Notes under the pieces: model-generated
Seen by the model: the letters and a program-made list of their open reading frames with translations, nothing else
Database searches by the model: none
What the model was told of the DNA's origin: nothing
Assembly (NCBI GenBank): GCA_026981635.1
Contig: JALSIF010000101.1
Coordinates: 1-23,060 of the forward strand
Source: JALSIF01 sp026981635 [NCBI: bacterium]
GTDB lineage: Bacteria; 4484-113; JALSIF01
DNA length: 23,060 nt
Reading direction: 5' to 3'
Translations under genes and position numbers: made by a program
Shown here: positions 253 to 21,512 of the stretch, in pieces
How positions within the stretch are numbered: the first letter of the stretch is position 1
How the letters are laid out: each line of letters starts with the position of its first letter

Positions 253-2379
253 CTAGCCCTCCCCAGCTCTAGGCTCTCCTTCGCTCCCCATGTCGGGGGG
301 GACATCCACCACCGCTATGGTCTTGATGTCCACCCCGGGTTCTATTTCGCTGAAACTCACTACCGCCGCCCCCTCGGCGATGCGCCGGGCGATCTTTGCT
401 ACGTAGGGGCGAATCCTGGGCCCCACTAAGAATAACGGAGTGTAGCCCTGATTGACCATCCGGCTAGCCACCACTTCCATCGCCTCCAGCATCCGGCGAA
501 GATAACTGGGAGAGAGCACCGTCATGGTCCCCTCCGGGGTCTGGCGCAGGGAATCGGCGATGCGCTGTTCAAGCTGGGGGGAGAAGGTGGCCACCATCAG
601 GGTGCCGCTCTCGTCCAGGTAGCCGGCCACGATTTGGCGGCGCAGGGCCTGACGCACCTTCTCAATCAGGAAGTCGGGATCGTCGCTCTCTGCCCGGTGC
701 TGGGCGAGGGCCTCAATGATCAGGGGCAGGTTGCGGATGGAGACCCGCTCCTCCAAAAGACCCCTGAGCACCGTGGTGAGCAGCTCCAGACTTACCCGCT
801 CGGGGACGATGCCCTCCACGGCGGCGGGACGGTTTTCCCTCAACTGGTCAACCAGCTCCTTTACCGCCTCGCGGGTAAGCAGCTCAGGAGCATGGCGCTT
901 GATCACCTCGGAGAGGTGGGTAGTGAGCACGGTGGTGGGATCAACCACGGTAAAGCCCATTGCCTCCGCCTTCATCCGCATCTCCGGCTCAATCCAAAAG
1001 GCCCTGAGGCCAAAGGCGGGCTCGGTGGTCTCAATCCCTTCAATATCTACTCCCTCCTGTACCGGATTCATGGCCAGGTAGCGGTCAATCACCAGGCTTC
1101 CCTTGGCCACCGGCGTCCCCTGGACCTTGATCACATATTCCCCCTGGTCCAGGGTGATGTTGTCCCGGATGCGGATGGGGGGAACGATGAAGCCCAGGCT
1201 GAGAGCGATCTGGCGGCGCAGGTTGGCGATGCGATCTAGCAGGTCACCCCCCTGCTCCTTGTCCACCAGGGGGATGAGGCCGTAGCCGATCTCAAGCTCC
1301 AGCGGGTCAACCTGGAGCAGGCCGGCCAGTTCCTCCTGGGGGGTGGGGGCGGTCTTTTCCTCCTCGGCCTCCTCCTTCTGTGGGCGCAGGGCTCGCTCCA
1401 CCTCCAGCCGGGTCTGGTAGAAGGCGGCCCCGGCCAGGCCGAGGGCAAAGGCGGCCAGCACCAGCTTGGGCATACCGGGGATGAGGGCCATAAAGAGCAT
1501 CACTCCACTGGCCACATAGAGCACCCGGGGAACCTGGCCCAGCTCCACGACGGCTGCCTCGCCCAGGGTGCGCTCGTCGGCCTGCTTGGTTACCATGAGC
1601 CCGGTGGCGGTGGAGACCATGAGGGCAGGGATCTGGGCCACCAGACCATCGCCGATGGTGAGCTGGGTAAAGACCTGGGCTGCCTCCCCCAGGGTCATCC
1701 CGTGGACCATGGTGCCCACGATGAGGCCCACGATGATGTTGATGAAGACCAGAAAGATGGCCACCACCGCGTCGCGCTGGACGAAGCGGCTGGCACCGTC
1801 CATCGCCCCGAAGTAGTCGGCCTCCCGCTCCAGCTCCCGGCGCCGGCGGCGCGCCTCCGCCTCGTCAATCAGGCCGGCGTTGAGGTCGGCGTCAATGGAG
1901 AGCTGCTTGCCGGGCAGGGCGTCCAAGGTGAAGCGGGCGGCCACCTCGGCGATGCGCTGGGAGCCGAAGGCGATGACGGCAAAGTTTATGACCACGATGA
2001 TGATGAAGATGGCGATGCCGATGGTGTAGCCCCCGCCGGCGAGGACGAAGGAGCTGAAGGTCTGGATGAACTTACCCGCGTAGGCATCGGTGAGGATGGC
2101 CCGGGTGGTGGCAACATTTAGGAAGAGGCGGTAGATGGCCAAAAGCAGGATCAGGGAGGGGAAGCTGGTGAAGTCCAGCGGGGACTTCACATACATGGTG
2201 AGGATGAGGACCAGGATGGCAAGGGAGATGGAGAGGGCGATAAAGGCGTCCAGCATCCAGCTGGGCCAGGGGACGATGAAGATGGCGATGCCCAGGATGA
2301 CCAGCAGGGGGACGCTCAGCTCCCGGAGCATTGAGGCGCTAGGCAGGGAGAGGCTCAGGGCAGGGCGATCGCCAGCCAC
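253..2379 (-). CDS. flhA: FlhA, flagellar type III export gate protein
   Basis: 708 residues, normal for FlhA. The N-terminal half (about 20-335) carries the multi-pass membrane region. The FHIPEP family block is at about residues 149-200, with RFTLDALPGKQLSIDADLNAGLI followed by GAMDGASRFV. The C-terminal half (about 345-700) is the cytoplasmic ring domain that receives export substrates and chaperones. A charged Glu/Lys linker near 335-345 separates the halves. FlhA forms the nonameric export gate with FlhB, FliP, FliQ and FliR at the base of the flagellum. The start is GTG at 2377-2379, with TAGAAT exactly 6 bases upstream and no Shine-Dalgarno, which suggests a leaderless transcript. The order flhB-flhA-flhF is a classic flagellar arrangement. 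No defect is visible. Confidence 0.97.
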   Translation of the reverse strand: MAGDRPALSLSLPSASMLRELSVPLLVILGIAIFIVPWPSWMLDAFIALSISLAILVLILTMYVKSPLDFTSFPSLILLLAIYRLFLNVATTRAILTDAYAGKFIQTFSSFVLAGGGYTIGIAIFIIIVVINFAVIAFGSQRIAEVAARFTLDALPGKQLSIDADLNAGLIDEAEARRRRRELEREADYFGAMDGASRFVQRDAVVAIFLVFINIIVGLIVGTMVHGMTLGEAAQVFTQLTIGDGLVAQIPALMVSTATGLMVTKQADERTLGEAAVVELGQVPRVLYVASGVMLFMALIPGMPKLVLAAFALGLAGAAFYQTRLEVERALRPQKEEAEEEKTAPTPQEELAGLLQVDPLELEIGYGLIPLVDKEQGGDLLDRIANLRRQIALSLGFIVPPIRIRDNITLDQGEYVIKVQGTPVAKGSLVIDRYLAMNPVQEGVDIEGIETTEPAFGLRAFWIEPEMRMKAEAMGFTVVDPTTVLTTHLSEVIKRHAPELLTREAVKELVDQLRENRPAAVEGIVPERVSLELLTTVLRGLLEERVSIRNLPLIIEALAQHRAESDDPDFLIEKVRQALRRQIVAGYLDESGTLMVATFSPQLEQRIADSLRQTPEGTMTVLSPSYLRRMLEAMEVVASRMVNQGYTPLFLVGPRIRPYVAKIARRIAEGAAVVSFSEIEPGVDIKTIAVVDVPPDMGSEGEPRAGEG

Positions 2380-2385
2380 GGGCTA

Positions 2386-2391
2386 ATTCTA
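2386..2391 (-). promoter_or_regulatory. -10 hexamer TAGAAT for leaderless flhA
   Basis: TAGAAT is followed by the 6-base spacer TAGCCC and then the GTG of flhA. No Shine-Dalgarno lies between, so the transcript would start at or next to the start codon. I see no TTGACA-like -35 at the expected distance. A weak 4-bp hairpin (CCCA/TGGG, 2393-2406) sits directly upstream. Confidence 0.6.
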
Positions 2392-2410
2392 TCCCATATC
2401 CCTGGGCTTG

Positions 2411-3490
2411 CTAGACCGCCAGGGTGGAAAGCTTCTTCATCAGCTTGGGGTCGGTGCGAGCCACCAGCGCCAGCACCTCGGCCACCGCGGCGAAGAACTC
2501 GGGGGGGATGGCCTGGTCAACCTCCACCTGGTGGTAGAGGGCGCGGGCCAGCTCGGGGTTGCGGTGGAGGGGGACGTGAAACTCGCGGGCGACCTCAATG
2601 ATCTTCAGTGCCCGAAAGTCCATCCCCTTGGCCACCACCACCGGGGCGTCCCGCTCCGGCTCATAGAGCAGGGCGACGGCGTAGTGTTCCGGGTTGGTGA
2701 TCACCACATCGGCCTCCCTGACCCGGCCGAGCTGGCGGCGAAAGACGAGCTCCCGACCCAGCTCGCGGATGCGCCGCTTGATCAGGGGATCGCCCTCCAG
2801 CTCCCGGCGCTCCTGCTTTACCTCGTACTTGGTCATGCGAAGGGACTTTTCGTACTCGTAGCGCTGATAGAGGTAGTCCACGATGGAAAGAAGCACCAGG
2901 GTCAGGCTCATGGCCAGGCCCATCTTGATGGCCACCGTGCCAGCAAAGACCATCGCCTGGGTGGGGTCGGTAAAGGAGAGCAGGGCGAAGTGCTGGAGGT
3001 TTGCCCTGAGCATAAGAAAGCCGACCACTCCCACCAGGACCACCTTTAGCAGGTTCTTAGCCAGCTCAAAGGCGCCCCGGATAGAGAAGATGCGTTTGAT
3101 GCCCTCAACCGGGTTTAGCCGCTCAAGCTTTGGGGTGATGGGGTCGCTGGAGAATAGGAAGCCCACCTGGCCCAAGGAGGCGATCAGGGAGAGGAGAAAA
3201 GCGGCGGCAAGGTAGGGGGACATGATGACGAGGCCGCGCAGGATTAGGTCGGAAAAGAGGGAGATCACCCCACCGGTAGAAAAGTCGCGGTAGAAGCCGG
3301 CTCCCCACAGCCCCTGGGTGATGGCCAGGATGCCGGCGGTGGTAAAGCCGGCGGCCAGGATGAGCAGGCCGAACATCCCTAGCAGGGCGATGGAGGAGCT
3401 GAGATCCTGGCTGCGGGCCACCTGCCCCTTCTCGCGGGCCTTTTCCTTGCGCCGGGGGGTGGCAGGCTCGGTGCGATCAGCGTCGGCCAT
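2411..3490 (-). CDS. flhB: FlhB, flagellar export switch protein (NPEH variant)
   Basis: 359 residues. The N-terminus is short and basic (TPRRKEKAREKGQVARSQDL), as in FlhB. Four membrane segments lie at about 33-60, 85-112, 145-165 and 180-207. The cytoplasmic linker has the typical MTKYEVKQE...EGDP pattern at about 219-235. The self-cleavage site is at residues 266-269 and reads NPEH instead of the usual NPTH. The Asn and Pro that carry out the cleavage and the His are kept; Thr is replaced by Glu. FlhB binds FlhA and switches export from rod-hook to filament substrates. The gene ends 31 bases before flhA. Its ATG has TAGGAT 7 bases upstream, but the spacer GTAGGGG could also act as a weak ribosome site, so leaderless status is less certain here. 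Confidence 0.96.
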   Translation of the reverse strand: MADADRTEPATPRRKEKAREKGQVARSQDLSSSIALLGMFGLLILAAGFTTAGILAITQGLWGAGFYRDFSTGGVISLFSDLILRGLVIMSPYLAAAFLLSLIASLGQVGFLFSSDPITPKLERLNPVEGIKRIFSIRGAFELAKNLLKVVLVGVVGFLMLRANLQHFALLSFTDPTQAMVFAGTVAIKMGLAMSLTLVLLSIVDYLYQRYEYEKSLRMTKYEVKQERRELEGDPLIKRRIRELGRELVFRRQLGRVREADVVITNPEHYAVALLYEPERDAPVVVAKGMDFRALKIIEVAREFHVPLHRNPELARALYHQVEVDQAIPPEFFAAVAEVLALVARTDPKLMKKLSTLAV

Positions 3491-3497
3491 CCCCTAC

Positions 3498-3503
3498 ATC
3501 CTA
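3498..3503 (-). promoter_or_regulatory. putative -10 hexamer TAGGAT for flhB
   Basis: TAGGAT lies 7 bases before the flhB ATG, and a perfect 7-bp inverted repeat (3504-3527) abuts it directly upstream. The spacing fits the leaderless rule seen at flhA and other genes. The G-rich spacer makes a Shine-Dalgarno reading possible too. Confidence 0.45.
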
Positions 3504-4504: not shown

Positions 4505-4512
4505 CTCTCACT

Positions 4513-4521: not shown

Positions 4522-4543
4522 GTGCTCATCTTGGGTTGAGGAT

Positions 4544-4566: not shown

Positions 4567-5889
4567 CTATTCTACTGCTGGCTGTGGGGTTTTTATCTCC
4601 TCCCCTTCCCCCAGGGCCAGTTTCTCTACCACCGCTGCACCCACCGCATCGCCCCAGATATTTACCGTGGTGCGGCTCATGTCCAGGATGCGATCCACTC
4701 CCAGGATGATGCCGATCCCCTCAAAGGGCAGGCCCACCGCCGAGAGGACTATGGTCATGGTGACCAGGCCGGCAGAAGGCACGGCGGCGGCGCCGATGGC
4801 GGCCAGGGTGGCGGTGATAAAGACCACCACCTGCTGATCAAAGGTCAGGTTTACACCGGTGAGCTGGGCGATGAAGAGGACCGCTACCGCCTCGTAGAGG
4901 GCGGTGCCGTCCATGTTGACGGTGGCTCCCACCGGGCAGACGAACTCCACCGCCTCCGCCCTGACCTTGGCCCGATCGCGGGCTCCCTCCATGGTGAAGG
5001 GGAGGGTGGCGGCACTGGAGGAGGTGGAGAAGGCGGTAAGGATGGCGGTAGTCATGGCGCGGGCAAACTCCAGCGGGCTGCGGCCGGTGATGAGCCTCAG
5101 GATCAGGGGGAGGACGATGGCCCCGTGGATGATAAGGCCGAGGATCACGGTGGCCATGTAGAGGGGCAGGTCAAAGAGGGGGCGCAGGCCACTTTTGGCC
5201 ACCAGGGTGATGATGAGGGCAAACACCCCCACCGGGGCAACCTCCATCACCCAGCTCACCACCTTCATCATCACTTCGTTCAGGCCGGTGAAGAACTGGC
5301 GCAGGGTGTCGGCGGGCCTTCCCACCGCGATGATCCCGATGGCCAGAAGCAGGCTGAAGAAGATGAGGGCGAGCACATCCATCCGGGCGAGGGCCTCGGC
5401 CGGGTTGGTGGGGATCATGGAGAGGAGGATCTCGCTGATGGGGCGGGGGCCCTGGCGTACGATCTCAGGAAGTTCGGCCGCCGCCACCTCCATGCCGGCC
5501 CTGCCCGGGTGGATCAGGTTGACCAGTACCAGGCCCAGGAAGACGGCGATGCCGGTGGTGGTGAGGTAGTAGGCCGCGGTAACTACCCCTAGCTTGCCCA
5601 GCCGCCGGCCTCCCCCCACACTGGTCACCCCGTGGATGATGGAGGCCACCACCAGGGGGACAATGATCATCTTGAGCAGGCGGATAAAGATCTCCCTTGG
5701 GGGAAAGAAGACCTCGTTTAGAAAGGGGAGCAAATGTTCTCCGTAGAGGCCAGCTGCAACCGCCACCATCACCGCGAGTGTGAACATGAAGAGGATGCGG
5801 AAGGTGAGGCTTTTTCTTAGCTTCAGGGCGAGGTAGAGGTCGAGGGCGATGATTAGCAGGAGAAGGCCGAGTGCGAGGGCGATCCCCAT
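4567..5889 (-). CDS. Glutamate/dicarboxylate:cation symporter (DAACS/SDF family)
   Basis: 440 residues with many hydrophobic segments, the normal size for GltP/GltT/DctA proteins. Family marks in order: the Ser-rich HP1 hairpin with STSSSAATLPFTM, the TM7 motif VNMDGTALYEA (NMDGT binds Na+ in characterised members), the HP2 region AAVPSAGLVTM, and the TM8 motif DMSRTTVNIWGDAVGAA. The Arg in SRTTVN matches the residue that holds the side-chain carboxylate of acidic substrates in EAAT-type carriers. This favours glutamate, aspartate or a C4-dicarboxylate over neutral amino acids. The protein starts with an extra N-terminal helix. The ATG is preceded at 6 bases by TAGACT, whose TAG is the stop codon of the macro-domain gene, so a separate leaderless transcript is likely. 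Confidence 0.9.
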   Translation of the reverse strand: MGIALALGLLLLIIALDLYLALKLRKSLTFRILFMFTLAVMVAVAAGLYGEHLLPFLNEVFFPPREIFIRLLKMIIVPLVVASIIHGVTSVGGGRRLGKLGVVTAAYYLTTTGIAVFLGLVLVNLIHPGRAGMEVAAAELPEIVRQGPRPISEILLSMIPTNPAEALARMDVLALIFFSLLLAIGIIAVGRPADTLRQFFTGLNEVMMKVVSWVMEVAPVGVFALIITLVAKSGLRPLFDLPLYMATVILGLIIHGAIVLPLILRLITGRSPLEFARAMTTAILTAFSTSSSAATLPFTMEGARDRAKVRAEAVEFVCPVGATVNMDGTALYEAVAVLFIAQLTGVNLTFDQQVVVFITATLAAIGAAAVPSAGLVTMTIVLSAVGLPFEGIGIILGVDRILDMSRTTVNIWGDAVGAAVVEKLALGEGEEIKTPQPAVE

Positions 5890-5895
5890 GGCCTA

Positions 5896-5901
5896 AGTCT
5901 A
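5896..5901 (-). promoter_or_regulatory. -10 hexamer TAGACT fused to the macro-domain stop codon
   Basis: TAGACT is followed by 6 bases (TAGGCC) and the ATG of the symporter. Its TAG at 5899-5901 is also the stop codon of the upstream macro-domain gene. No Shine-Dalgarno is present between the genes. Confidence 0.55.
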
Positions 5902-6477
5902 GCCGAGCAGCTTGGCCATCTCCTCCGGCGGCTCGCCGATGGAGTCGGCAAAGCCAGAGAGGGCGCGGCCGAAGATCTCCGCGTCGGGCTCCTTTAAGAG
6001 TGCGAAGGCCACCAGCTCGGGCGGGGTTCCCTGCTCGTCGTAGAACTTCCTTGCCGCCCCGGTCATCAGACGGGCGCACTGGTCCAGGGGAAAGCCGCCT
6101 ACGCCGGTGCCGATGGCGGGAAAGACGATGGAGGAAAGGTTGTGATCTCGGGCAAGCCGAAGGCTGGAGAGGGTGGAGCGCTCAATCAGCTCGGCGCTGG
6201 TTCTAAGGTCCTGGCCCATGCCGGCGGCGTGGATCACGTGGCGGGCGGGGAGATTCCCTGCCGTGGTGATCACCGCCTCGCCCGGCTCAATGGGGCCTTG
6301 AGCCACCGCCTCCCGCTCAATCTCCGCCCCGCCGGCCCGCTTGATGGCCCCGGCCACCCCGGCCCCCATCCATAGACCTGAGTTGGCCGCGTTGACCACT
6401 GCATCGGTGCGGGCATGGGTGATATTGCCAGTGTAGGAGACCAGGTAGAGATCGCCGTAGCGATACCATAGCTGCAT
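5899..6477 (-). CDS. Macro-domain ADP-ribose-binding protein / deacylase
   Basis: 192 residues, a single macro domain. Motifs in order: TGNIT (16-20), VVNAANSGL (28-35) whose Asn contacts the distal ribose, the glycine loop GAGVAGAIKRAGG (38-50), HVIHAAG (80-86) and the second loop AIGTGVGGFP (121-130). The glycine loop reads GVAGAI, like the archaeal Af1521 type (GVAYAI), and lacks the Asp of the bacterial YmdB/MacroD type (GVDGAI). Such proteins bind ADP-ribose and often remove ADP-ribose from acidic residues or hydrolyse O-acetyl-ADP-ribose; the exact substrate cannot be told from sequence. The neighbouring PHP phosphoesterase gene hints at nucleotide clean-up. TAGAAT sits 6 bases before the ATG, so the transcript is probably leaderless. 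Confidence 0.9.
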   Translation of the reverse strand: MQLWYRYGDLYLVSYTGNITHARTDAVVNAANSGLWMGAGVAGAIKRAGGAEIEREAVAQGPIEPGEAVITTAGNLPARHVIHAAGMGQDLRTSAELIERSTLSSLRLARDHNLSSIVFPAIGTGVGGFPLDQCARLMTGAARKFYDEQGTPPELVAFALLKEPDAEIFGRALSGFADSIGEPPEEMAKLLG

Positions 6478-6483
6478 GGCACG

Positions 6484-6489
6484 ATTCTA
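6484..6489 (-). promoter_or_regulatory. -10 hexamer TAGAAT for the leaderless macro-domain gene
   Basis: TAGAAT, then the 6-base spacer CGTGCC, then ATG at 6475-6477. No Shine-Dalgarno is present. A weak 4-bp hairpin (6491-6502) lies directly upstream. Confidence 0.6.
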
Positions 6490-6513: not shown

Positions 6514-7389
6514 CTACCCAGCGGGTGTGGGAGGGAGATCCCAGCTCAACTCCACCTCCAGGGCGTCAAGCAGGGGCAGGAGCAGGTTGGGGTCTCCTTG
6601 GGGAGGTTGGTACTGATCCTCAAAGAAGCCGTGGAAGTCGCTCCCTCCGGAGACGAGCAGGTTTTCTTCGCTGGCTAGTTCCAGATACTTCTTCCTCTCC
6701 TCCTCAGTGTGGCGGCCGTAGAGAGCCTCAATTCCCCTCACCTCCATCCTCACCACTTCCTCCACCACCGGGTCGGGGTAGCGGTGGGGGTGGGCGAGAG
6801 CGGTGATGAGCCCTAGCTCGCCTAGGATACCCACCACCTCACGGGTGGCAAGGCGGGGCTTCATCGCTTCCTGGGCGGAGGGATTGTTTACGATGGTGCT
6901 CTCGTACCAGGATTTGATCTCGTCGGGAGACTTGATCAGGCCAGATTCCAGGGCGGCCAGGATCACGTGGGCCAGGTGGATGGGGACCCCCCGCTCCTCG
7001 GCCTTGGCCTGGATGGAGTGGGGGTCAATGCCGCCGCCAAACTCCCGGTTAAGGTAGCCGATCAGGGCTAGGAAGCGCTGATCGTTGATCTCTCGCAGAC
7101 GCTGTTCAAACTCCCTCAGGTCGCTTCGCTCAAGGTCTCCGCCAAAGGCCAGGATGTCCACCTGGAGCCAGTCGCTGCCCTCCTCATAGAGGGTGGAGAC
7201 CTCAATGCCGGATACCGCAGTGAGGGGTGAGCTTTCGGCTGAGCGGAGGAAGCTTCTTGCCCCCTGCCAGGTGTCGTGGTCGGTGGCGGCGGCTAGGCGG
7301 AGGCCGGCGGGTAGCAGAACCTGGCTGATCAGTTCGGCCGGCTCGTAGCGACCGTCGGAGTAGCGGGTGTGAAGCTGAAGATCAAACAC
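6514..7389 (-). CDS. PHP-domain phosphoesterase (TrpH/YciV-like), altered first metal motif
   Basis: 291 residues. PHP metal-site motifs appear in order: FDLQLHTRYSDG at the N-terminus, AATDHDT (about 34-40), GIEVST (about 61-66), HLAHVILA (about 138-145), ALAHPHRYP (about 198-206) and SGGSDFHG (about 247-254). The insert between motifs and the overall length match the TrpH/YciV group, known in E. coli as a 3',5'-nucleotidase and 5'-3' exoribonuclease on short RNA. The first motif is unusual: where most PHP proteins have HxH, this one has QxH (Gln5, His7), so one metal ligand is changed. The GTG start places the motif at the very N-terminus, as is usual. Upstream lies a 6-bp hairpin and a possible TAACCT -10 at 9 bases; the start signal is weaker than those of its neighbours. 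Confidence 0.85.
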   Translation of the reverse strand: MFDLQLHTRYSDGRYEPAELISQVLLPAGLRLAAATDHDTWQGARSFLRSAESSPLTAVSGIEVSTLYEEGSDWLQVDILAFGGDLERSDLREFEQRLREINDQRFLALIGYLNREFGGGIDPHSIQAKAEERGVPIHLAHVILAALESGLIKSPDEIKSWYESTIVNNPSAQEAMKPRLATREVVGILGELGLITALAHPHRYPDPVVEEVVRMEVRGIEALYGRHTEEERKKYLELASEENLLVSGGSDFHGFFEDQYQPPQGDPNLLLPLLDALEVELSWDLPPTPAG

Positions 7390-7403
7390 CGCCTTGCTAG
7401 GTT

Positions 7404-7419
7404 ATCCCATCGGTGGGAT
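7404..7419 (-). terminator. Perfect 6-bp hairpin between the membrane-protein and PHP genes
   Basis: ATCCCA, tetraloop CCGA on the minus strand, then TGGGAT. It lies just after the stop codon of the upstream membrane-protein gene and 14 bases before the PHP start. There is no U-run. It may be a weak terminator or an operator; a TAACCT hexamer (7399-7404) overlaps its end. Confidence 0.35.
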
Positions 7420-7425: not shown

Positions 7426-8478
7426 TCAGCCCGGGTCGGGCATAAACTGGGGCATCCCCTTTTCCTCCTCCTCTGCCTGGGTCGTCCTTATCCTCCTCAG
7501 GTAGTCCAGGTGGAGCTCCAGGTCATAGGCCTCGTGGTGGGACTTGGCGGTAAGGTAGAGGAGGTAGTGGAGCAGGGGGAGGAAGGGGGCGACGATCATC
7601 TCCGCTACCAGGGTGAGCCCCTGCTGGAGAGCAACCTCAACCGGGTTTAGGGGGAGGGCCTGGCCCGTCCAGACCTCGGGCGAGGTGGTTCCGGTGATGA
7701 GGGAGATGAGCAGGGAGAAGGGGGTAAGAAGCACCAGCAGGATGAAGTAGACCGCAAGCTGGGCAAGGATCCAGCCGAGGAGGAAGGTAAAGAACATCCC
7801 CCGGCCAAGCTCGTGGGCACGCAGGAAGATACGCTTGCTGTCCTCTCCCAGTCTTCCCTCTGTCAGGTAGTCTTCCAGGGCAGCGATGGGGCTGATCAGG
7901 TAGTAGCGGATGGAAAGGAGCATCAGAACCACTCCCCAGGCAAACATCCCCATAAAGATGAGGGCGACGGCGATCCCCCCCGCCGGTCCGGTCTGGTTGG
8001 TCAGGGGGATAGCGGGCAGGGCGAAGAGGAAGAAGGCTGGGGTGGAGAGGAGAAAGACGGCCACATAGGCCACCTGCCAGCGGAGGTAGCTGCGGCGAAC
8101 CTGGCGCCAGGCCGAGGCGATGGTGGGCCGACCGCCGCTCATGAGCTCATGGAAGGCGTGAATGCCTGCGATGACCGGCAGGGGGTAGAGGAGGAGCTTT
8201 ATCACCAGGGCAGTAAGGGCAACCATGATGAGGCCGCCCATCTCGTCCAGCACGAACTGGAAATCGGCCCCCCATAGCAGGCTGTTGCCCAGGTTTATGG
8301 TGGGCCTGACCATGACCATGCCGAAGAGCTTGTAGATGAGGGAGGCGGTGAGGGCAAAGGGAAGGATCACTCCCAAGGCGGGGAGAAAGTGGGTGCGGTA
8401 GAGGCGGAAGAGGAGGGTGAGTATGTCGCTGGGTGAGGGGGGGCGGCGGAGGGGGAAGGGGTCAGCTTTCCCAGCCAC
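7426..8478 (-). CDS. Unknown polytopic membrane protein
   Basis: 350 residues from the GTG at 8476-8478. I do not recognise a named family with confidence. The shape is a cytoplasmic N-terminus rich in Pro and Arg, then about six long hydrophobic stretches (about 30-52, 78-105, 135-160, 168-192, 225-260, 285-315) and a charged C-terminal tail with Glu and Arg. This resembles the broad group of glycerophosphodiesterase-membrane-domain or DUF975-like proteins. An ATG three codons upstream (8485-8487) overlaps the -10 hexamer TAGAAT and so cannot be in the transcript if the leaderless rule holds. The GTG lies 7 bases after that hexamer, which is why I choose it. The TAG of the hexamer is also the stop of the upstream transporter gene. 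Confidence 0.7.
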   Translation of the reverse strand: MAGKADPFPLRRPPSPSDILTLLFRLYRTHFLPALGVILPFALTASLIYKLFGMVMVRPTINLGNSLLWGADFQFVLDEMGGLIMVALTALVIKLLLYPLPVIAGIHAFHELMSGGRPTIASAWRQVRRSYLRWQVAYVAVFLLSTPAFFLFALPAIPLTNQTGPAGGIAVALIFMGMFAWGVVLMLLSIRYYLISPIAALEDYLTEGRLGEDSKRIFLRAHELGRGMFFTFLLGWILAQLAVYFILLVLLTPFSLLISLITGTTSPEVWTGQALPLNPVEVALQQGLTLVAEMIVAPFLPLLHYLLYLTAKSHHEAYDLELHLDYLRRIRTTQAEEEEKGMPQFMPDPG

Positions 8479-8485
8479 GGGAGAC

Positions 8486-8491
8486 ATTCTA
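8486..8491 (-). promoter_or_regulatory. -10 hexamer TAGAAT fused to the transporter stop codon
   Basis: TAGAAT, 7-base spacer GTCTCCC, then GTG at 8476-8478. The TAG at 8489-8491 is the stop codon of the upstream transporter. The ATG embedded across the hexamer end (TAGAATG) is in frame and would mislead automatic start calling. Confidence 0.6.
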
Positions 8492-12055: not shown

Positions 12056-13045
12056 TCAGGCGGTGCGGGCCGCCTGGGGTAGCTTCTGGTGGCGGGGGGA
12101 AAAGACCACTGGGTCATCAGACTCGGCAAGATCTGCCTGGTAGTCGGCCCAGTAGGAGGAGCGAACCAGGGGAGCCGAAGCCACCGCCTTAAAGCCCAGC
12201 TTCACCGCGCAGTCGGCAAACCAGTCAAACTCCTCAGGCAACACGTAGCGGGCCACCGGCAGCTGGCCGGGGCTGGGGCGGAGGTACTGGCCGATGGTGA
12301 TCATCTCCACCCCGGCGCTTCTAAGGTCCTTCATCACCTCAACCACTTCCCGGTTGGTTTCTCCCAGGCCCACCATGAGGCCGCTCTTGGTGCGGGGGCG
12401 GATCTCGGGGGGGAGCTCGGCGAAGTAGCGAAGGACTTTGAGGGAGTGCTCATAGTTTGAGCCCGGGCGGACCGTCTTGTAGAGGCGGGGGACCGTCTCC
12501 ACGTTGTGGTTGAGGTAGTCGGGCCGCGCCTGGGCAACGATCTCCAGCGCCTCGGGCTTGTTCCTGAAGTCGGGGATGAGCACCTCAATGCGGGTGCCCG
12601 GTGAGAGGCGGCGGATGGCCCGGATGGTGCGGGCAAAGTGGATCGCCCCGCCGTCCCACAGGTCGTCGCGGTCCACCGAGGTGACCACCACGTGCCTCAG
12701 CCCCAGCCGGGCTACCGCCCGGGCCACCTTCTCCGGCTCCTCTGGATCGGGAAGGTTGGGCCGGCCGTGCATCACGTGGCAAAAGCCGCAGGAGCGGGTG
12801 CAATGGGCGCCCAGGATCATGAAGGTGGCGGAGCCCCGCTCCCAGCACTCGCCGATGTTGGGGCAGGCGGCCTCCTCGCAGACGGTGGTGAGACCGCCGG
12901 TGGCGGCAAGCACCTTCTGGCGGGCCTTGGTGGTGCGGGCACGAACCTTGATCCAGCTAGGGCGGAGGGGCTCCGACCCGTTTGCCGCTAGGCGCTCGGG
13001 GGCCTTGTTGCGGGCACTGACATGGTGACGGGTACGACTGGCCAC
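12056..13045 (-). CDS. lipA: Lipoyl synthase LipA
   Basis: 329 residues from the GTG at 13043-13045, the usual length for LipA. The auxiliary cluster motif CEEAACPNIGEC gives Cys56, Cys61 and Cys67; the radical-SAM motif CTRSCGFC gives Cys82, Cys86 and Cys89; the C-terminal RSSY (in LVRSSYWAD) supplies the serine ligand of the auxiliary cluster. All catalytic marks are present. LipA inserts two sulfurs into octanoyl groups on lipoyl domains of dehydrogenase complexes and the glycine cleavage system. No lipB, lipM or lplA lies nearby. The frame stays open 40 codons upstream to 13165, but that part overlaps the divergent lipoprotein gene. The shorter GTG start has TATAAT 9 bases upstream and gives the normal size, so I prefer it. 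Confidence 0.96.
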   Translation of the reverse strand: MASRTRHHVSARNKAPERLAANGSEPLRPSWIKVRARTTKARQKVLAATGGLTTVCEEAACPNIGECWERGSATFMILGAHCTRSCGFCHVMHGRPNLPDPEEPEKVARAVARLGLRHVVVTSVDRDDLWDGGAIHFARTIRAIRRLSPGTRIEVLIPDFRNKPEALEIVAQARPDYLNHNVETVPRLYKTVRPGSNYEHSLKVLRYFAELPPEIRPRTKSGLMVGLGETNREVVEVMKDLRSAGVEMITIGQYLRPSPGQLPVARYVLPEEFDWFADCAVKLGFKAVASAPLVRSSYWADYQADLAESDDPVVFSPRHQKLPQAARTA

Positions 13046-13054
13046 GGTGATAGG

Positions 13055-13060
13055 ATTATA
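13055..13060 (-). promoter_or_regulatory. -10 hexamer TATAAT for lipA
   Basis: A perfect TATAAT lies 9 bases before the GTG of lipA, giving a leader of only about 2-3 bases or a leaderless mRNA. There is no Shine-Dalgarno. A short palindrome (CCCGA-CT-TCGGG on the plus strand, 13064-13075) sits just upstream. Confidence 0.6.
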
Positions 13061-14710: not shown

Positions 14711-14716
14711 TATAAT
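14711..14716 (+). promoter_or_regulatory. -10 hexamer TATAAT for leaderless ribE
   Basis: A perfect TATAAT, the 6-base spacer CGCCCC and then the GTG of ribE. No Shine-Dalgarno lies between, and there is no room for an FMN riboswitch between the permease stop and this start. Confidence 0.65.
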
Positions 14717-14722
14717 CGCCCC

Positions 14723-15352
14723 GTGTTTAGCGGCATCATCCGCTACCGGGGTCGGGTCGTCCACCTAGAGCGAGGACCAGAGGGGGGGAGGCTCACCCTG
14801 GAAGTGGGCAGTGAGCTTGCCGCTAGCCTGGCGCTGGGAGATTCCCTGGCGGTAAACGGCTGCTGCCTCACTCTGGCAGAGTTAGGCGGCGGGAAGCTCA
14901 CCTTTGACCTCACCCCGGAGACCCTGGCCAAGACCAACCTGGGGGAGCTTGCCAGTGGGTCGCTGGTAAACCTTGAACCCAGCCTAAGGCTGGGTGAGCC
15001 GGTCCACGGCCACCTGGTCTATGGCCATGTGGACGGGGTGGGGGTGGTTGAGGAGATCTCCGCCACCGACGGGGGAGGGCGGCTGACCGTGGCCCTGCCG
15101 GAGGAGCTTTCCCGCTACCTCTTTCCCACCCTGTCCCTTGCGGTTGACGGGATAAGCCTTACCGTTCAGGGGGTGGAGGGAAACCGGGCCAGCTTCGCCC
15201 TGGTGCCAACCACCCTGGGGGAGACCAACCTTGCCGAGCGAAAGGTTGGAGATAGGGTAAATATTGAGGTGGACATGGTGGTGAAGGCGGCCTTCGCCGC
15301 CGCCAGGGCGGCCCTGGGACAGGAAAGCAGCGGCGGGACTGAGGTAGGATGA
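14723..15352 (+). CDS. ribE: Riboflavin synthase alpha subunit
   Basis: 209 residues, the usual length. It has two lumazine-binding halves. The first begins MFSGIIRYRG (canonical MFTGIVexxG) and includes LAVNGCCLTL; the second, after about residue 96, has VYGHVDGVGVV and LAVDGISLTVQGVEG. The enzyme turns two molecules of 6,7-dimethyl-8-ribityllumazine into riboflavin plus a pyrimidinedione. GTG is chosen as start because it gives the conserved MFxGI end and lies 6 bases after TATAAT. It is followed at once by ribBA; ribD and ribH are not in the window. Confidence 0.95.
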   Translation: MFSGIIRYRGRVVHLERGPEGGRLTLEVGSELAASLALGDSLAVNGCCLTLAELGGGKLTFDLTPETLAKTNLGELASGSLVNLEPSLRLGEPVHGHLVYGHVDGVGVVEEISATDGGGRLTVALPEELSRYLFPTLSLAVDGISLTVQGVEGNRASFALVPTTLGETNLAERKVGDRVNIEVDMVVKAAFAAARAALGQESSGGTEVG

Positions 15353-15353: not shown

Positions 15354-16637
15354 ATGGAGCTAGCCATGGAGAGCAGTCAGGATAAGCTTCATCGTGAGCG
15401 CATTGAGCGAGTGCTCAAGGGGATTGAGGAGATCAAGCGGGGGCGGTTTGTGATCCTGCTTGATGACGAGAACCGGGAAAACGAGGGGGACCTGGTCACC
15501 GCCGCCGAGCTCATCACCCCGGAGAAGGTGAACTTCTACCTGCACAAGGCGCGGGGGATGATCTGCGTACCCATGAGCGCCGAGCGCTGCGAGGAGCTGG
15601 ACCTTCCCCTGCTGGTGGACAACTACCCGCGGGACGCCAAGCATACCGCCTACTGCATGACGGTGGACTACCGCTGGGGGACCACCACCGGCATCTCGGC
15701 CCACGACCAGGCCCTAACCATCCGGATGTTGGCCGACCCGAAGGCTCGGCCGGAGGACTTCACCCGGCCGGGACACATTCATCCCCTGAGGGCGATGCCC
15801 GGCGGGGTACTCAAGCGGGTGGGCCATACAGAGGGGGCGGTGGACCTGTGCATTCTGGCTGGCCTTCGGCCGGTGGCGGTGGTCTGCGAGATCATGAACG
15901 AGGACGGCACCATGGCCAGGAGGCCGGACCTCATGGCCTTCGCCCAGCGGGAGGGCATCCACCTCATGTACATCGCCGACCTGGTTTACTACCGGTTGCT
16001 CCACGAGAGCTGGGTGGAGCGGATAGACGAGGCGGACCTTCCCACTCGCTGGGGGAAGTTTAGGGCCATCGCCTACCGCACCAAGGACGGCAGTGAGGAG
16101 CACCTGGCGGTGGTGAAAGGAGATATCAGCCCCGACCAGCCGGTGCTGGTCAGGATGCACTCGGAGTGCCTCACCGGTGATGCCCTAGGGAGCCTGCGCT
16201 GCGACTGCGGGCTTCAGCTGGAGTTTGCGATGGAGAGGATCGCCGAGGAGGGAAGGGGGGTGCTGGTCTATCTTCGCAACCACGAGGGGCGGGGGATTGG
16301 GCTGGCCAACAAGCTTCGTGCCTACCACCTGCAGGATAGGGGATTGGATACGGTGGAGGCCAACCTCCACCTGGGCTTTCCGCCCGACAAGCGCGACTTT
16401 GGGGTGGGTGCCCAGATCCTTCGCGACCTGGGGGTGAGGAAGATCCGCCTGATCACCAACAACCCCAAGAAGTTGGTGGGGCTTTCAGGCTACGGGCTGG
16501 AGATCGTGGAGCGTATCCCCATCCCCCTGGAGGTGATGCGCACCCGCTACAACCAGCGCTACCTGGAGACCAAGCGGGAGCGGCTGGGCCACCTGATCCA
16601 GGGGGTGGAGGAGGCGGACGCCGCCGGGGAGGGCTAG
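15354..16637 (+). CDS. ribA: RibBA, DHBP synthase / GTP cyclohydrolase II
   Basis: 427 residues, two fused enzymes. Residues about 15-225 are 3,4-dihydroxy-2-butanone-4-phosphate synthase, with FVILLDDENRENEGDLVTAAE and HTEGAVDLCILAGL. Residues about 230-420 are GTP cyclohydrolase II, with the zinc motif HSECLTGDALGSLRCDCG (Cys272, Cys283, Cys285) and NHEGRGIGLANK, where RQEGRGIGL is more usual, then TNNPKKLVGL near the end. Both start the two branches of riboflavin synthesis, from ribulose 5-phosphate and from GTP. The ATG follows the ribE stop by one base, with GAGGT upstream inside the end of ribE. A second in-frame ATG at 15366 is a possible start. Its own stop codon TAG is the start of the next gene's -10 hexamer. 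Confidence 0.96.
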   Translation: MELAMESSQDKLHRERIERVLKGIEEIKRGRFVILLDDENRENEGDLVTAAELITPEKVNFYLHKARGMICVPMSAERCEELDLPLLVDNYPRDAKHTAYCMTVDYRWGTTTGISAHDQALTIRMLADPKARPEDFTRPGHIHPLRAMPGGVLKRVGHTEGAVDLCILAGLRPVAVVCEIMNEDGTMARRPDLMAFAQREGIHLMYIADLVYYRLLHESWVERIDEADLPTRWGKFRAIAYRTKDGSEEHLAVVKGDISPDQPVLVRMHSECLTGDALGSLRCDCGLQLEFAMERIAEEGRGVLVYLRNHEGRGIGLANKLRAYHLQDRGLDTVEANLHLGFPPDKRDFGVGAQILRDLGVRKIRLITNNPKKLVGLSGYGLEIVERIPIPLEVMRTRYNQRYLETKRERLGHLIQGVEEADAAGEG

Positions 16638-16640
16638 AAT
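16635..16640 (+). promoter_or_regulatory. -10 hexamer TAGAAT fused to the ribBA stop codon
   Basis: TAGAAT begins with the TAG stop codon of ribBA (16635-16637). It is followed by the 6-base spacer CTGCCC and the GTG of the propeller lipoprotein. No Shine-Dalgarno is present. Confidence 0.6.
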
Positions 16641-16646
16641 CTGCCC

Positions 16647-17852
16647 GTGCCCAAGCTGACCCTCCCGCTTACTAAGGCCCTGCATCTTGCCCTAAGCGTT
16701 CTTGCGTTGCTTCTTTTTACCTCCTGCCCTCGGGTCCCCTCGGCCATTGAGACCGGCACCGGATACGACCTCTCCAAGCCCATCTACCGAGAGGTGAGGG
16801 TGATTGAACTTCGGCTCCCCGACGGGGTCCCCCCCATCAGGCAGGCCACCTCCCTGGCGGTGGGGGAGGGGGAGCTTTATATCGCCGACGGAGATCGGGC
16901 TAGGGTGCTGGTATTTGACCTGGAGGGAAACTTTCGCCGCCAGATCGGAAACGGCAAACGCATCGCCCCCTACCAGATCCCCATTGAGGCGGTGCAGGAC
17001 AACGACATCTGGCTAAAGAAGGAGGAGCTTCCCCCGGAGCTTGAGCAGTGGTACGAGAAGCGGGAGTTCTTCCGTCCCCTGGGGGTGCGCTACTTTGAGG
17101 GACGGGTCTTTATCCTCACCGACTACATAAGCTCGGGGGCCAAGCAAACCCTGTATAAGCCGGGCATCTGGATCTACACCCCGGAGGGGGAGTTTGAGGA
17201 CGAGATCAAGCTGGTCAATGCCATGGGCCCCTTTCTGGATGTGAGTGAGGGGAGTGCGGCGGTGGCCGATCGCTGGATGCTGGGGGTGGAGGTGCACAGC
17301 GCAGAGAGCGGAAAGCTTCTCGGCATCCTGGGGATGAAGATGAGCTTCCGCCAGCTGATCAGAAACCTGGCCGCGGTGGAGGAATCGAGGCGGGAGGCAT
17401 ACATCAAAGGGATCGTGAACTCGGGCACCGATCTCGGCAAGTTTGGCGGTCTGATGGGCGGGGTGGACATCTTCCACGGCAAGGTGCTGGTGGCCGACCC
17501 GGGAAACAGCCGCATCCAGATCCTCCGCCTTGACGCCTCCCCCATGCAGTCCATTGACGGGCTGGAAGAGGGGGTGGTGAGGTTTAAGACCCCGCTTCTG
17601 GTTGAGGTTAGCCCCGAGGGGGAGATCTTTGTCTGGGACTACACCCTGAGGCAGTTTTCCCTCCTTAACCCCGACTTCTCCCTGGCCTACCAGTTTGGCT
17701 ACGGGAAGGTTGAGAATCCGGTGGACATGCAGTATGCCGAAGGGCTGGGGCTCTTGGTGCTTGACTCCAAAGGGAGGGTCCACCTCTTTGCCAAGGCCCG
17801 CATCAACCCCCGCACCGGCGAGGTGATTGAGACGGGAGGAGGAAGTGAGTGA
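16647..17852 (+). CDS. Putative beta-propeller (NHL-like) lipoprotein
   Basis: 401 residues. A basic and hydrophobic start ends in LLFTSC with Cys27, a fair lipoprotein signal (Phe at -3 is not ideal). The mature part has repeated blade-like pieces of the NHL/6-bladed propeller kind: TSLAVGEGELYIADGDRARVLVFDLEG, later DIFHGKVLVADPGNSRIQILRLD, LLVEVSPEGEIFVWDYTLRQFSLL and MQYAEGLGLLVLDSKGRVHLF. The phrases IADGDRARV and VADPGNSRI are typical of NHL blades. No catalytic motif is seen; such proteins usually bind partners or ligands outside the inner membrane. The GTG start lies 6 bases after TAGAAT. The end overlaps the start of the MeaB-like gene by 8 bases. Confidence 0.75.
   Translation: MPKLTLPLTKALHLALSVLALLLFTSCPRVPSAIETGTGYDLSKPIYREVRVIELRLPDGVPPIRQATSLAVGEGELYIADGDRARVLVFDLEGNFRRQIGNGKRIAPYQIPIEAVQDNDIWLKKEELPPELEQWYEKREFFRPLGVRYFEGRVFILTDYISSGAKQTLYKPGIWIYTPEGEFEDEIKLVNAMGPFLDVSEGSAAVADRWMLGVEVHSAESGKLLGILGMKMSFRQLIRNLAAVEESRREAYIKGIVNSGTDLGKFGGLMGGVDIFHGKVLVADPGNSRIQILRLDASPMQSIDGLEEGVVRFKTPLLVEVSPEGEIFVWDYTLRQFSLLNPDFSLAYQFGYGKVENPVDMQYAEGLGLLVLDSKGRVHLFAKARINPRTGEVIETGGGSE
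17834..17842 (+). promoter_or_regulatory. Shine-Dalgarno that fixes the MeaB start
   Basis: GGGAGGAGG lies inside the end of the propeller gene, 2-5 bases before GTG 17845-17847. It favours this GTG over the TTG at 17827. Confidence 0.65.
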
Positions 17853-18798: not shown

Positions 18799-19583
18799 CC
18801 CCCCCATTCCCCGAACCAGAGCTTTCGGGCAAGCTCCGCCTGGCGGACAAGCATGCCAAAGCCATTTCTTGCCGGGATGCCGGCCAGGGTCGCTGCCATC
18901 TCCAGTGGAGTGGGGCGGGGGGTGTAGACCAGGTCATAGACCAGCCGTGCCCCCTGAAGATGGTCTGCCGCAAGGGGAGTGGGGGAGCCTTCGGTCCCCG
19001 CAGGGGTGGCGTTTATCACGAGCGCTCCGGCAACCGCCTGACCCCGCAGAGGCCAGCTCATGGCAAGCACCGCCCGCACACCCTGGCCGAAGTGGTAGGA
19101 AAGCCGGCCCGCCTGCTCGGGGCGGCGGGAGGCAATGGCTATCTCCCCTATGCCCAGTCCCAGCAGGGTGTAGACCACGGCGCGGGCGGCTCCCCCCGCC
19201 CCCAGCACCAGGGCGCGGCGGGTGGGGAAGACTCTCAGCAGGGGGGAAAGCTCTGCCGCCAGGGCGGGGGCATCGGTGTTTGCCCCCCACCACTCACCTT
19301 CCCGGAGAAAGACGGTGTTTACCGCACCGATGGCGTGGGCCTCCAGGGTGAGGCGGGGAAGGTGGCGGACGATTCGCTCCTTGTAGGGCTTGGTGATGTT
19401 GAGGCCCAAAGTGGTGGGGTCGGAGAGGAGCTCAGCCACCACCCGGTCAAACTCCTCTTCGGGGATGTCAACCAGCCGGTAGCTCACCTTTGGGCGGTTT
19501 GCTGAAAGCCACTCCTGGTGGAGGCTGGGGCTAAGGGAGTAGTCGATCCCCCTGCCCAGCAGGTAGAGGCGGGTTCTGCTCAT
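18795..19583 (-). CDS. aroE: Shikimate dehydrogenase
   Basis: 262 residues, normal length. Motifs: YSLSPSLHQ (shikimate-binding SxS), LNITKPYKE with the catalytic Lys68, GAVNTV, GANTDA with Asp104, ALVLGAGGAARAV (NADP-binding glycine loop), ASRRPEQ (the Arg pair after the second strand favours NADPH), INATPAG, YDLVYTPRPTPLE and the C-terminal NGFGMLVRQAELA. It reduces 3-dehydroshikimate to shikimate in aromatic amino acid synthesis. The ATG overlaps the stop of the upstream gene as ATGA, so translation is coupled. It is the last gene of a fliJ-led group, an odd partner for a flagellar gene. The end interlocks with the meaB stop (18795-18798). Confidence 0.95.
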   Translation of the reverse strand: MSRTRLYLLGRGIDYSLSPSLHQEWLSANRPKVSYRLVDIPEEEFDRVVAELLSDPTTLGLNITKPYKERIVRHLPRLTLEAHAIGAVNTVFLREGEWWGANTDAPALAAELSPLLRVFPTRRALVLGAGGAARAVVYTLLGLGIGEIAIASRRPEQAGRLSYHFGQGVRAVLAMSWPLRGQAVAGALVINATPAGTEGSPTPLAADHLQGARLVYDLVYTPRPTPLEMAATLAGIPARNGFGMLVRQAELARKLWFGEWGG

Positions 19584-20668: not shown

Positions 20669-21122
20669 GGAGCTCCGTTCCCGATCTTCGCTGGCGCTGG
20701 CTCTGGGCCACCTCATCCAGGAGCTTCTGTTCCAGGCGGGCCATCTCCCGAAGGTAGCGGGCCCTTCGGAAACTTTGCAGGCGCTTTACCACCTTGTGGC
20801 GGACCAGCTTCTGGTGGAGGTTGGCCCGGCTTTGCTCAACCTTTTCTGCTTGGGCTTGGGTAGCTTCGGCCTGGCGGCTGATCTGTTCGCGCAGGAGCTG
20901 CTCAAAGGTTTTGTAGTGGAGGATGAGGGTGGGGTCGGGACGGCGGCGTCTAAGCTCGGCCTCCTCCTCCATCACCTGGTGATAGGTGGCGCGGGAGTGG
21001 GAGAGGATGCGCTCCAGCTCCGCCAGCCGGGAACGCTCGCGGACAAGTTCAAGCTGGGCCCTTTCCTTCTCAATGCGCCGCACCCTCTCCAGGGGCACAA
21101 AGGGCAGGCGAAACCTACGCAT
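20661..21122 (-). CDS. fliJ: FliJ-like flagellar export protein
   Basis: 153 residues from the ATG at 21120-21122, almost wholly charged helix. It begins MRRFRLPFVPLERVRRIEKE, like the F+F.L..LL.+R...E start of FliJ. The end reads YLREMARLEQKLLDEVAQSQ, matching the FliJ ending with E.K..DE.A. FliJ is the coiled-coil stalk of the flagellar export ATPase FliI and links it to FlhA. Length and composition fit. The alternative ATG two codons upstream (21126-21128) lies inside the spacer between the -10 TAAGAT and the chosen ATG, so it would not be transcribed under the leaderless rule. FliI, FliH and the rest of a fli operon are not adjacent. Confidence 0.75.
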   Translation of the reverse strand: MRRFRLPFVPLERVRRIEKERAQLELVRERSRLAELERILSHSRATYHQVMEEEAELRRRRPDPTLILHYKTFEQLLREQISRQAEATQAQAEKVEQSRANLHQKLVRHKVVKRLQSFRRARYLREMARLEQKLLDEVAQSQRQRRSGTELHE

Positions 21123-21128
21123 GGCCAT

Positions 21129-21134
21129 ATCTTA
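21129..21134 (-). promoter_or_regulatory. -10 hexamer TAAGAT for leaderless fliJ
   Basis: TAAGAT, the 6-base spacer ATGGCC, then ATG at 21120-21122. No Shine-Dalgarno is present. The matching -35 zone would lie over the -10 of the divergent TMEM14-like gene. Confidence 0.5.
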
Positions 21135-21155
21135 GCGCCCAAGAGTGCCTCGGGT

Positions 21156-21161
21156 TAGAAT
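21156..21161 (+). promoter_or_regulatory. -10 hexamer TAGAAT for the leaderless TMEM14-like gene
   Basis: TAGAAT, the 6-base spacer TGGTCC, then ATG at 21168. No Shine-Dalgarno is present. No upstream stop codon overlaps it, so the hexamer is not explained by stop-codon use. Confidence 0.6.
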
Positions 21162-21167
21162 TGGTCC

Positions 21168-21512
21168 ATGGACCCGCAACAGCTTGCCGGAGTGGCGAAC
21201 ATCGTCTATGCAATCTTGCTCATTCTGGGGGGAGTGGCCGGCTACGGTCAAGCAAAAAGCAAGGCCTCCCTGGTGAGCGGGGTTGCCGCCGGGGTGGTGG
21301 TTTTGGTGGCGGCCATCGGGATATTCACCGACCAGCGCTGGGGGCTGATGCTTGGGGCCCTGGCGGCGCTGGTGCTCTTGGCCTTCTTCATCTACCGCTA
21401 CGCCAAGACCCAGAAGTTCTATCCCGCGCTGGTGATGCTGGTGGTGAGCATCGTGGCGCTGGCGGTGGACATCTGGTCCCTCTACCTGACGGGGCAGGGG
21501 ACGGGGGGCTAG
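21168..21512 (+). CDS. TMEM14-family small membrane protein
   Basis: 114 residues with four hydrophobic segments (about 8-25, 35-52, 57-76, 85-108). The first loop holds GGVAGYGQAKSKASLVSGVAAG, the mark of the Tmemb_14 family (G..GY.+..S..SL..G...G). Family members occur in bacteria, plastids and mitochondria; TMEM14C in animals is tied to porphyrin transport and plant FAX proteins to fatty-acid export. The bacterial role is not settled. Expression is predicted to be leaderless and divergent from fliJ. Its stop codon shares the palindrome CTAG (21509-21512) with the stop of the facing lipoprotein gene. Confidence 0.8.
   Translation: MDPQQLAGVANIVYAILLILGGVAGYGQAKSKASLVSGVAAGVVVLVAAIGIFTDQRWGLMLGALAALVLLAFFIYRYAKTQKFYPALVMLVVSIVALAVDIWSLYLTGQGTGG

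Follow-up and report, generated by a model that had tools for sequence, protein, structure and literature searches.

How genes are started in an uncultured bacterial lineage is the question raised by a stretch of 23,060 nucleotides from JALSIF01 sp026981635 (GTDB lineage 4484-113; assembly GCA_026981635.1, contig JALSIF010000101.1), hereafter the window, in which genes as different as flhA, ribE and a dicarboxylate symporter gene begin a few bases downstream of a hexamer resembling a promoter -10 element. An initial annotation of the window had named ten such starts, had described the hexamer as ending mostly 6 or 7 bases before the start codon, and had proposed that starts of leaderless type are widespread in this lineage. 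All ten starts carry the hexamer at the distance described, including flhB (TAGGAT, 7 bases), which had been listed as probable, and lipA (TATAAT, 9 bases), which had been listed as near-leaderless. The pattern TAGAATN{6,7}RTG matched five times in the window, against a mean of 0.13 in 100 dinucleotide shuffles, none of which reached five matches. Taken with the genome-wide evidence described below, the sequence makes it highly probable that these window genes are leaderless or near-leaderless and are led by a lone -10 element.

The window (contig C101, GC content 63.5%) belongs to a genome of 1.745 Mb in 317 contigs that is 85% complete. A further 100 contigs were drawn from it; 54 short ones that read as N were left out, and 47 stretches including the window, amounting to 481,405 bases, were analyzed. 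A low mean GC content had pointed to contamination of the bin, a possibility that was rejected when the value was traced to the 54 N-reading contigs; the 47 stretches span 0.585–0.673 GC. Nine of the 46 contigs other than the window (L011–L019) had been picked for listed matches to TAGAATN{6,7}ATG, and the window had likewise been supplied on account of the motif. An unselected set was therefore defined as the 37 contigs other than these and the window (375,667 bases, 342 genes, 313 starts). In both sets a start was counted only if preceded by 70 bases, so that 36 of 456 genes, having no start or fewer than 70 bases, were dropped and 420 starts remained in the complete set. Genes were called with a home-made program that relies on coding score alone and ignores upstream sequence.

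The absence of a TANNNT peak near position -12 had been named by the initial annotation as the outcome that would speak against its proposal, and a motif search before start codons was run genome-wide. A peak was found: TANNNT ended 6 or 7 bases before 25 of the 313 unselected starts, compared to 6.7 expected (P = 5e-8). Counts at spacers of 5 to 10 bases were 2, 13, 12, 10, 22 and 6 over a background of 3.4 per position; for the 420 starts of all 47 stretches they were 4, 26, 22, 11, 26 and 10 over a background of 4.1, with a total of 48 at spacers 6–7 versus 8.2 expected, the motif-picked contigs being included in these latter figures. Expressed as a share of called starts, the excess at spacers 6–9 was 14% for the unselected contigs and 16% when motif-picked ones were added. 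Leaderless-type starts are thus widespread beyond the window, as had been proposed, since the excess persists once all motif-picked sequence is set aside. The proposed spacing of 6–7 bases proved too narrow: the peak at 6–7 is there, but spacer 9 is equally or more frequent.

The hexamer was unevenly distributed among genomic contexts. In the unselected contigs, TANNNT at spacers 6–9 preceded none of the 48 starts that overlap or are packed against the gene before, 9 of 37 starts after tandem gaps of 9–40 bases, 15 of 116 after larger tandem gaps and 32 of 102 divergent starts, while control spacers 16–19 gave 0, 3, 4 and 7 in the same four contexts. For all stretches the figures were 1/72, 19/56, 21/145 and 41/136. 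Absence at packed starts and abundance at divergent ones are what an independent promoter predicts. Orientation was also informative. Forward and reverse copies of TAGAAT numbered 18 and 1 in 139 tandem gaps, 8 and 11 in 51 divergent gaps, and 0 and 1 in 21 convergent gaps of the unselected contigs; 59 permutations of its letters averaged 2.3/1.9, 1.7/1.5 and 1.4/1.2, respectively, with 12/6, 8/5 and 5/5 as the largest values. The counts for all stretches were 24/1, 15/13 and 1/1.

These distributions bear on an explanation that treats the hexamer as an A/T-rich signal for translation, lying within the leader of transcripts that start further upstream. Non-canonical A/T-rich ribosome sites are known in the FCB group, according to the accessible part of PMC9581028, and the position of the hexamer overlaps that of a ribosome site. 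However, the motif closely resembles the sigma-70 -10 consensus; it is specific to one strand within tandem gaps, evenly shared between the strands of divergent ones and unenriched in convergent ones; and it is also found 10–60 bases upstream of other starts. Packed starts, which call for a ribosome site but for no promoter, lack it (0 of 48). A translation signal is, on this evidence, very improbable. The consensus, strand and context specificity of the hexamer support its action as a promoter -10 element.

Alignment of 85 sequences on the hexamer revealed no position from -38 to -3 departing from background by more than 0.11 bits, in keeping with the earlier remark that no TTGACA-like -35 is present; the bases just before the hexamer showed a mild preference for G at -2 and C at -1 (0.18 bits). 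TAG was the most frequent first half of the hexamers. The word TAGA[AC]T was found 35 times at spacers 0–9 and continued, thinning, over some 60 bases farther upstream, for which reason the same -10 element may also serve leadered genes at longer distances.

Evidence on the site of transcription initiation came from the base preceding the start codon. At spacer 6 this base was a pyrimidine in 13 of 13 unselected starts and, for comparison, in 90 of the 241 starts that lack the motif (P = 5e-6); for all stretches the figure at spacer 6 was 26 of 26. The same 26 starts had C at -2 in 88% and at -1 in 81% of cases, which bears out the description of spacers that mostly end in CC. No clear pyrimidine/purine step at the start codon was observed for spacers 7 and 9. 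The -1 pyrimidine at spacer 6 is indirect evidence that fits initiation at the purine with which the ATG or GTG codon opens.

A working model can be outlined as follows. A housekeeping sigma factor would recognize a lone -10 element (TAGAAT, TAGACT, TAAGAT or TATAAT) without a recognizable -35, and the polymerase would start some 7 bases downstream at a purine following a pyrimidine, which at spacer 6 would be the first base of the start codon. The messenger would then lack a 5' leader or, at spacer 9, carry one no longer than about 3 nt, with ribosomes entering at the terminal start codon without Shine-Dalgarno (SD) pairing. A second, SD-led class of genes would coexist with this one.

SD-like words did peak at spacers 5–10 in the 47 stretches. 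Among the 420 starts, 131 had only an SD-like word, 81 only TANNNT, 3 both and 205 neither; 81 of the 84 TANNNT starts lacked an SD-like word from -18 to -4, consistent with the initial annotation, which saw no clear SD sequence between hexamer and start. This exclusion is partly mechanical because the hexamer and the SD sequence occupy the same bases. The view that leaderless translation is a major mode next to an SD class is fair, but an excess of 14% does not make the mode dominant. Of the 312 starts that lack the -10 motif, 49% had G immediately ahead of the start codon, a context preference of the non-leaderless class.

Because hexamers beginning with TAG or TAA contain a stop codon, a different origin of the words had to be weighed, namely that they are stop codons of upstream genes, or in-frame stops, that happen to resemble a -10 element, with a spacing set by gene packing and by the caller's choice of the first start. 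TAG accounts for 60% of stops in the sample (251/420), in three window genes the hexamer's TAG also terminates the preceding gene, and spacers 6 and 9 stand in frame with the start. Set against this, words of the form TA[AG]N[AC]V, in which the last letter is not T, gave no peak (3, 5, 2 and 4 at spacers 6–9 of the unselected contigs), whereas TA[AG]N[AC]T gave 10, 8, 6 and 16 in the same contigs; the final T, as in a -10 element, is therefore required. Moreover, the motif precedes 32 of 102 divergent genes, hexamers starting with TAT or TAC also peak at spacers 6–7 (7 and 10 first starts), and only seven TAGAAT or TAGACT words coincide with stops across the whole sample. An origin in stop codons is hardly credible in view of these data. 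Fusion of a -10 element with a stop codon was observed in three adjacent gene pairs of the window and in one more pair, at gaps of 7–14 bases. As a genome-wide rule such fusion was rejected, given the seven TAGAAT/TAGACT stops in all; it is real and infrequent.

Leaving aside the stop-codon explanation and returning to promoter elements placed at the start codon, their spacing was analyzed by counting, for each -10-like word, the first start that follows it. From spacer 6 to spacer 10 these starts numbered 15, 14, 10, 19 and 8 in the unselected contigs and 30, 28, 11, 25 and 10 in all stretches, compared to 35, 8, 9, 8 and 3 in a related family of the same phylum (f3) and 17, 7, 1, 2 and 2 in Thermus. 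The unselected contigs differed from f3 in this respect (P = 0.003). Spacer 9 exceeded its neighbors 8 and 10 with P = 0.02 in the unselected contigs and P = 0.003 in all stretches, and lipA and a PHP-domain gene of the window fall in this class. Hexamers with TAT or TAC gave 6 cases at spacer 9 versus 3 and 4 at spacers 8 and 10, numbers too few when taken alone; the tests over both kinds of hexamer are no more than suggestive of a spacer-9 peak that is independent of in-frame TAG. Non-standard start codons at spacer 6 were considered as a cause of this peak and rejected, since the preceding triplets in the 24 window starts were such as AGA, GCC, CCC and AGC, with one TTG. The broad spacing with a class at 9, together with the three -10 elements fused to upstream stops, is what distinguishes this genome. 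A tentative proposal, which we regard as possible rather than likely, is that two registers operate, with transcripts starting at the start codon or, at spacer 9, about one codon upstream, and that the -10 element doubles as upstream stop codon in compact arrays. If so, messengers of the spacer-9 class would have a leader of 3 nt, which the ribosomal E site could accommodate, and neighboring genes in compact arrays would be transcribed separately, the promoter being the only DNA between them. The difference in spacing with respect to f3 would offer a natural series for the tolerance of ribosomes to leaders of 0 to 3 nt.

The occurrence of these starts in relatives was assessed for ten genomes of the phylum (G000–G009, the source genome included) belonging to four families (f1–f4). 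G005 corresponds to Zod_Metabat.1143 (locus L112), as its matches fall at identical places, and G009 probably to AUK090 (L111), as the counts agree. For each whole genome, matches to TAGAAT-ATG, TATAAT-ATG and TAGAAT-GTG were summed at spacers 6–7 and compared to the same patterns shifted to spacers 11–12. The sums were 45/13 for G000, 77/32 for G001, 86/53 for G002, 100/66 for G003, 105/28 for G004, 138/40 for G005, 173/42 for G006, 125/35 for G007, 77/33 for G008 and 96/66 for G009, so that all ten genomes exceeded the shifted control, with ratios of 1.45–4.1. TAGAAT-GTG was the most telling single pattern: a clear or moderate excess was present in nine of the ten members (in the source genome, 24 vs 5) and in none of the outgroups G012 (22 vs 19), G013 (6 vs 10) and G015 (17 vs 15). 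In called starts, TANNNT at spacers 6–7 was observed 9 times in G004 (1.1 expected), 17 in G006 (1.8), 8 in G005 (1.8) and 8 in G003 (2.0); the stretches of G003, G005 and G006 lie on contigs with known matches, some of these within the stretches, which slightly favors their counts, and those of G004 hold none of the matches listed. The same procedure yielded 21 vs 1.7 for 200 kb of Thermus thermophilus pTT27 as positive control, 3 vs 0.5 for 50 kb of Deinococcus radiodurans MP1, and 3 vs 3.9 for 150 kb of E. coli as negative control. Abundant leaderless-type starts are in this way extended to an uncultured phylum, in which ten of ten genomes exceed the control, three of them weakly.

Outside the phylum the sums were 215/169 for G012 (AUK107; P = 0.011), 93/82 for G013 (UBP15_UBA6099) and 117/96 for G015 (ADurb.Bin236). 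In the parts of these genomes for which starts were called, spacers 6–7 gave 0 vs 2.2 in UBP15 (51 starts), 1 vs 2.2 in ADurb.Bin236 (60) and 1 vs 1.1 in AUK107 (30). A control with reversed patterns had given a TAGAAT signal in UBP15, USMO and ADurb.Bin236 (29 vs 5, 44 vs 7 and 37 vs 7); this signal was rejected, the spacer-shifted control giving 29 vs 49, 44 vs 43 and 37 vs 46. Further comparisons restricted to TAGAAT-ATG yielded 44/43 for G014, 62/85 for G016, 26/35 for G021, 33/27 for G022 and 13/18 for G023, and G017–G020 were compared by the reversed control only. In the AT-rich Denitrovibrio (G016, stretches L146–L149) called starts gave 16 vs 5.2 in 67 starts, yet its whole-genome TAGAAT-ATG count shows no such excess.

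Several of the observations weigh against the leaderless reading or against its breadth. Some concern the pattern counts. Within the phylum, the excess was weak in G002, G003 and G009 (P = 0.003–0.011); TATAAT failed to exceed its control in G002 (28 vs 27) and G003 (35 vs 31), as did TAGAAT-ATG in G009 (20 vs 26) and TAGAAT-GTG in G005 (13 vs 11), and the f3 relatives show no such C ahead of the start. Outside it, TATAAT-ATG was in excess in UBP15 (58 vs 23, P = 6e-5) and ADurb.Bin236 (63 vs 35, P = 0.003), and TAGAAT-ATG in AUK107 (83 vs 43), where TATAAT showed none (110 vs 107). Since three outgroups exceed on single patterns, the excess cannot be claimed as restricted to the phylum, and UBP15 and ADurb.Bin236 may hold a smaller leaderless class of TATAAT type. 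The remaining points concern individual genes. The start choices of the home-made caller are uncertain, and leaderless status was poorly conserved between orthologues. Reciprocal best matching of the sample with stretches of five relatives gave 45 pairs, in which 11 genes from the source genome have TANNNT at spacers 6–9; the relative has it in 2 of these 11, no more than chance would give (Fisher P = 1.0). One of the two (L079, whose start is preceded by GGAGGAAGA) probably has the motif by chance, and 4 of the 11 alignments begin at unmatched offsets (256/11, 106/244, 25/4 and 6/2). The other of the two, ribE, is clear, with TATAAT-6-GTG in the source genome, TACAAT-6-ATG in G006 and an alignment from residue 1 in both. 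Several other orthologues have an SD-like word before the relative's start. This pattern suggests that the mode of initiation may turn over between relatives.

Uncertain start calls also invite the view that the promoters are genuine and that the real starts lie further downstream, the messengers having short leaders and the called codons being upstream artefacts. The four unmatched alignments would fit this view, as would flhA, for which the caller preferred an ATG 16 codons downstream. Yet 7 of the 11 alignments begin within one residue of the matching offset (1/1, 1/1, 5/5, 6/6, 22/22, 4/5 and 6/5), and the pyrimidine/purine step falls exactly on the start codon at spacer 6. Starts displaced downstream are on balance most unlikely, and start codons at or next to the transcript end remain the preferred interpretation.

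A comparable class has been described. In the accessible part of Zheng et al. (2011; PMC3160421), TA-led genes have a TANNNT some 12 bp ahead of the start codon, interpreted as a sigma-70 -10 box, and account for over 20% of the genes of Actinobacteria and Deinococcus-Thermus, being present elsewhere too; 21.6% of bacterial species are predicted to use leaderless transcription by a survey quoted in the part of PMC9581028 that was available. The starts analyzed here share with the TA-led class, as that part of the paper presents it, the position of the hexamer, the coexistence with SD-led genes and the weakly informative middle bases in GC-rich genomes. They differ from it in belonging to an uncultured phylum, in their wider spacing with a class at 9 and in having TAG as the commonest first half. 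Beside the share of more than 20%, the excess here amounts to 14% of called starts (16% with motif-picked contigs). The T. thermophilus plasmid pTT27 (positions 1–200000), treated with the same pipeline, shares the peak at spacer 6, the absence of a -35, the SD class, an excess of 12% at spacers 6–9 and the -1 preference (C in 83% and purine in 6% of 18 spacer-6 starts). By contrast, its spacing is sharp at 6 (18, 3, 1 and 3 at spacers 6–9), as opposed to 13, 12, 10 and 22 in the unselected contigs. Mycobacteria and other Actinobacteria, of a different lineage, also combine leaderless and SD-led genes in one genome, a likeness based on the description in the accessible part of PMC9581028. The starts thus belong to the known TA-led leaderless class and are ordinary in kind; the lineage is new as far as the literature was searched, no report on it having been found among work on leaderless initiation in candidate phyla and metagenome-assembled genomes (MAGs), in a search that was judged by titles and the opening of abstracts, did not use the phylum name and covered subscription journals little. 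For genome annotation, gene callers tuned to SD sequences may misplace starts in this lineage, and a -10 element some 12 bases ahead can serve as a signal for locating them.

The individual starts of the window are as follows. On the reverse strand, flhA (positions 2377–2391; Pfam FHIPEP) has TAGAAT at 2386–2391, a 6-nt spacer and GTG at 2379, and flhB (3488–3503; Bac_export_2), whose alignment with a relative starts at residues 4 and 5, has TAGGAT at 3498–3503, a 7-nt spacer and ATG at 3490. The dicarboxylate symporter gene (5887–5901, reverse; SDF) has TAGACT at 5896–5901, 6 nt before ATG 5889, the TAG (5899–5901) doubling as stop codon of the macro-domain gene; the latter (6475–6489, reverse; Macro) has TAGAAT at 6484–6489, 6 nt before ATG 6477. 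The PHP-domain gene (7387–7404, reverse; PHP), an extra case beyond those of the initial annotation, has TAACCT at 7399–7404 and a 9-nt spacer before GTG 7389. A gene previously named as encoding a membrane protein, without a Pfam match (8476–8491, reverse), has TAGAAT at 8486–8491, a 7-nt spacer and GTG at 8478, and here too the TAG (8489–8491) is the stop codon of the gene upstream. The gene named lipA in the initial annotation (13043–13060, reverse; Radical_SAM) has TATAAT at 13055–13060 and a 9-nt spacer before GTG 13045. On the forward strand, ribE, encoding riboflavin synthase (14711–14725; Lum_binding), has TATAAT at 14711–14716, 6 nt before GTG 14723, and the NHL/propeller gene (16635–16649; Pfam match, NHL) has TAGAAT at 16635–16640, 6 nt before GTG 16647, its TAG (16635–16637) being also the ribBA stop codon. 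The gene named fliJ by the initial annotation alone (21120–21134, reverse) has TAAGAT at 21129–21134, 6 nt before ATG 21122, and a second ATG at 21128 abuts the hexamer; the TMEM14-like gene (21156–21170, forward; Tmemb_14) has TAGAAT at 21156–21161, 6 nt before ATG 21168. The last two genes are divergent (21120–21170) and both of leaderless type, with only 45 bases between their start codons.

The caller found TANNNT at spacers 6–7 in 8 of 24 window starts, versus 0.3 expected. These eight are not the eight of the initial annotation: flhB and a GTG at 4453 (TATCCT), probably a false call, are present, and flhA and fliJ are absent because the caller took ATG 2331 and ATG 21128.

Pfam searches named the window genes as flhA, flhB, NYN/YacP-like, dicarboxylate symporter, macro-domain, PHP, dCTP deaminase-like, radical-SAM (lipA), riboflavin synthase, ribBA, NHL-repeat, meaB, shikimate dehydrogenase-like and TMEM14-like; 6 of the 20 window proteins had no Pfam match. 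A search with FlhA among 84,980 species genomes returned 15 loci. Across most of the protein, the highest identities were 53% and 52%, both to loci from MAGs; another (L125) reached 53% over part of the protein only, and further loci included UBP15, ADurb.Bin236 and Deferribacteres. None of the 15 loci was labelled Deinococcus-Thermus or Actinobacteria, most labels reading just 'bacterium'.

Finally, TAG was the main stop codon in the 47 stretches (251 of 420, with TGA at 136 and TAA at 33) at 63% GC, and 193 of 316 stops were TAG in the unselected contigs. The share of TAG was 34–44% in the relatives G003–G006, 31% in T. thermophilus pTT27 and 6% in E. coli. Because the accessible part of PMC8789281 reports that bacterial TAG usage is roughly constant across GC contents, the 60% found here looks exceptional.

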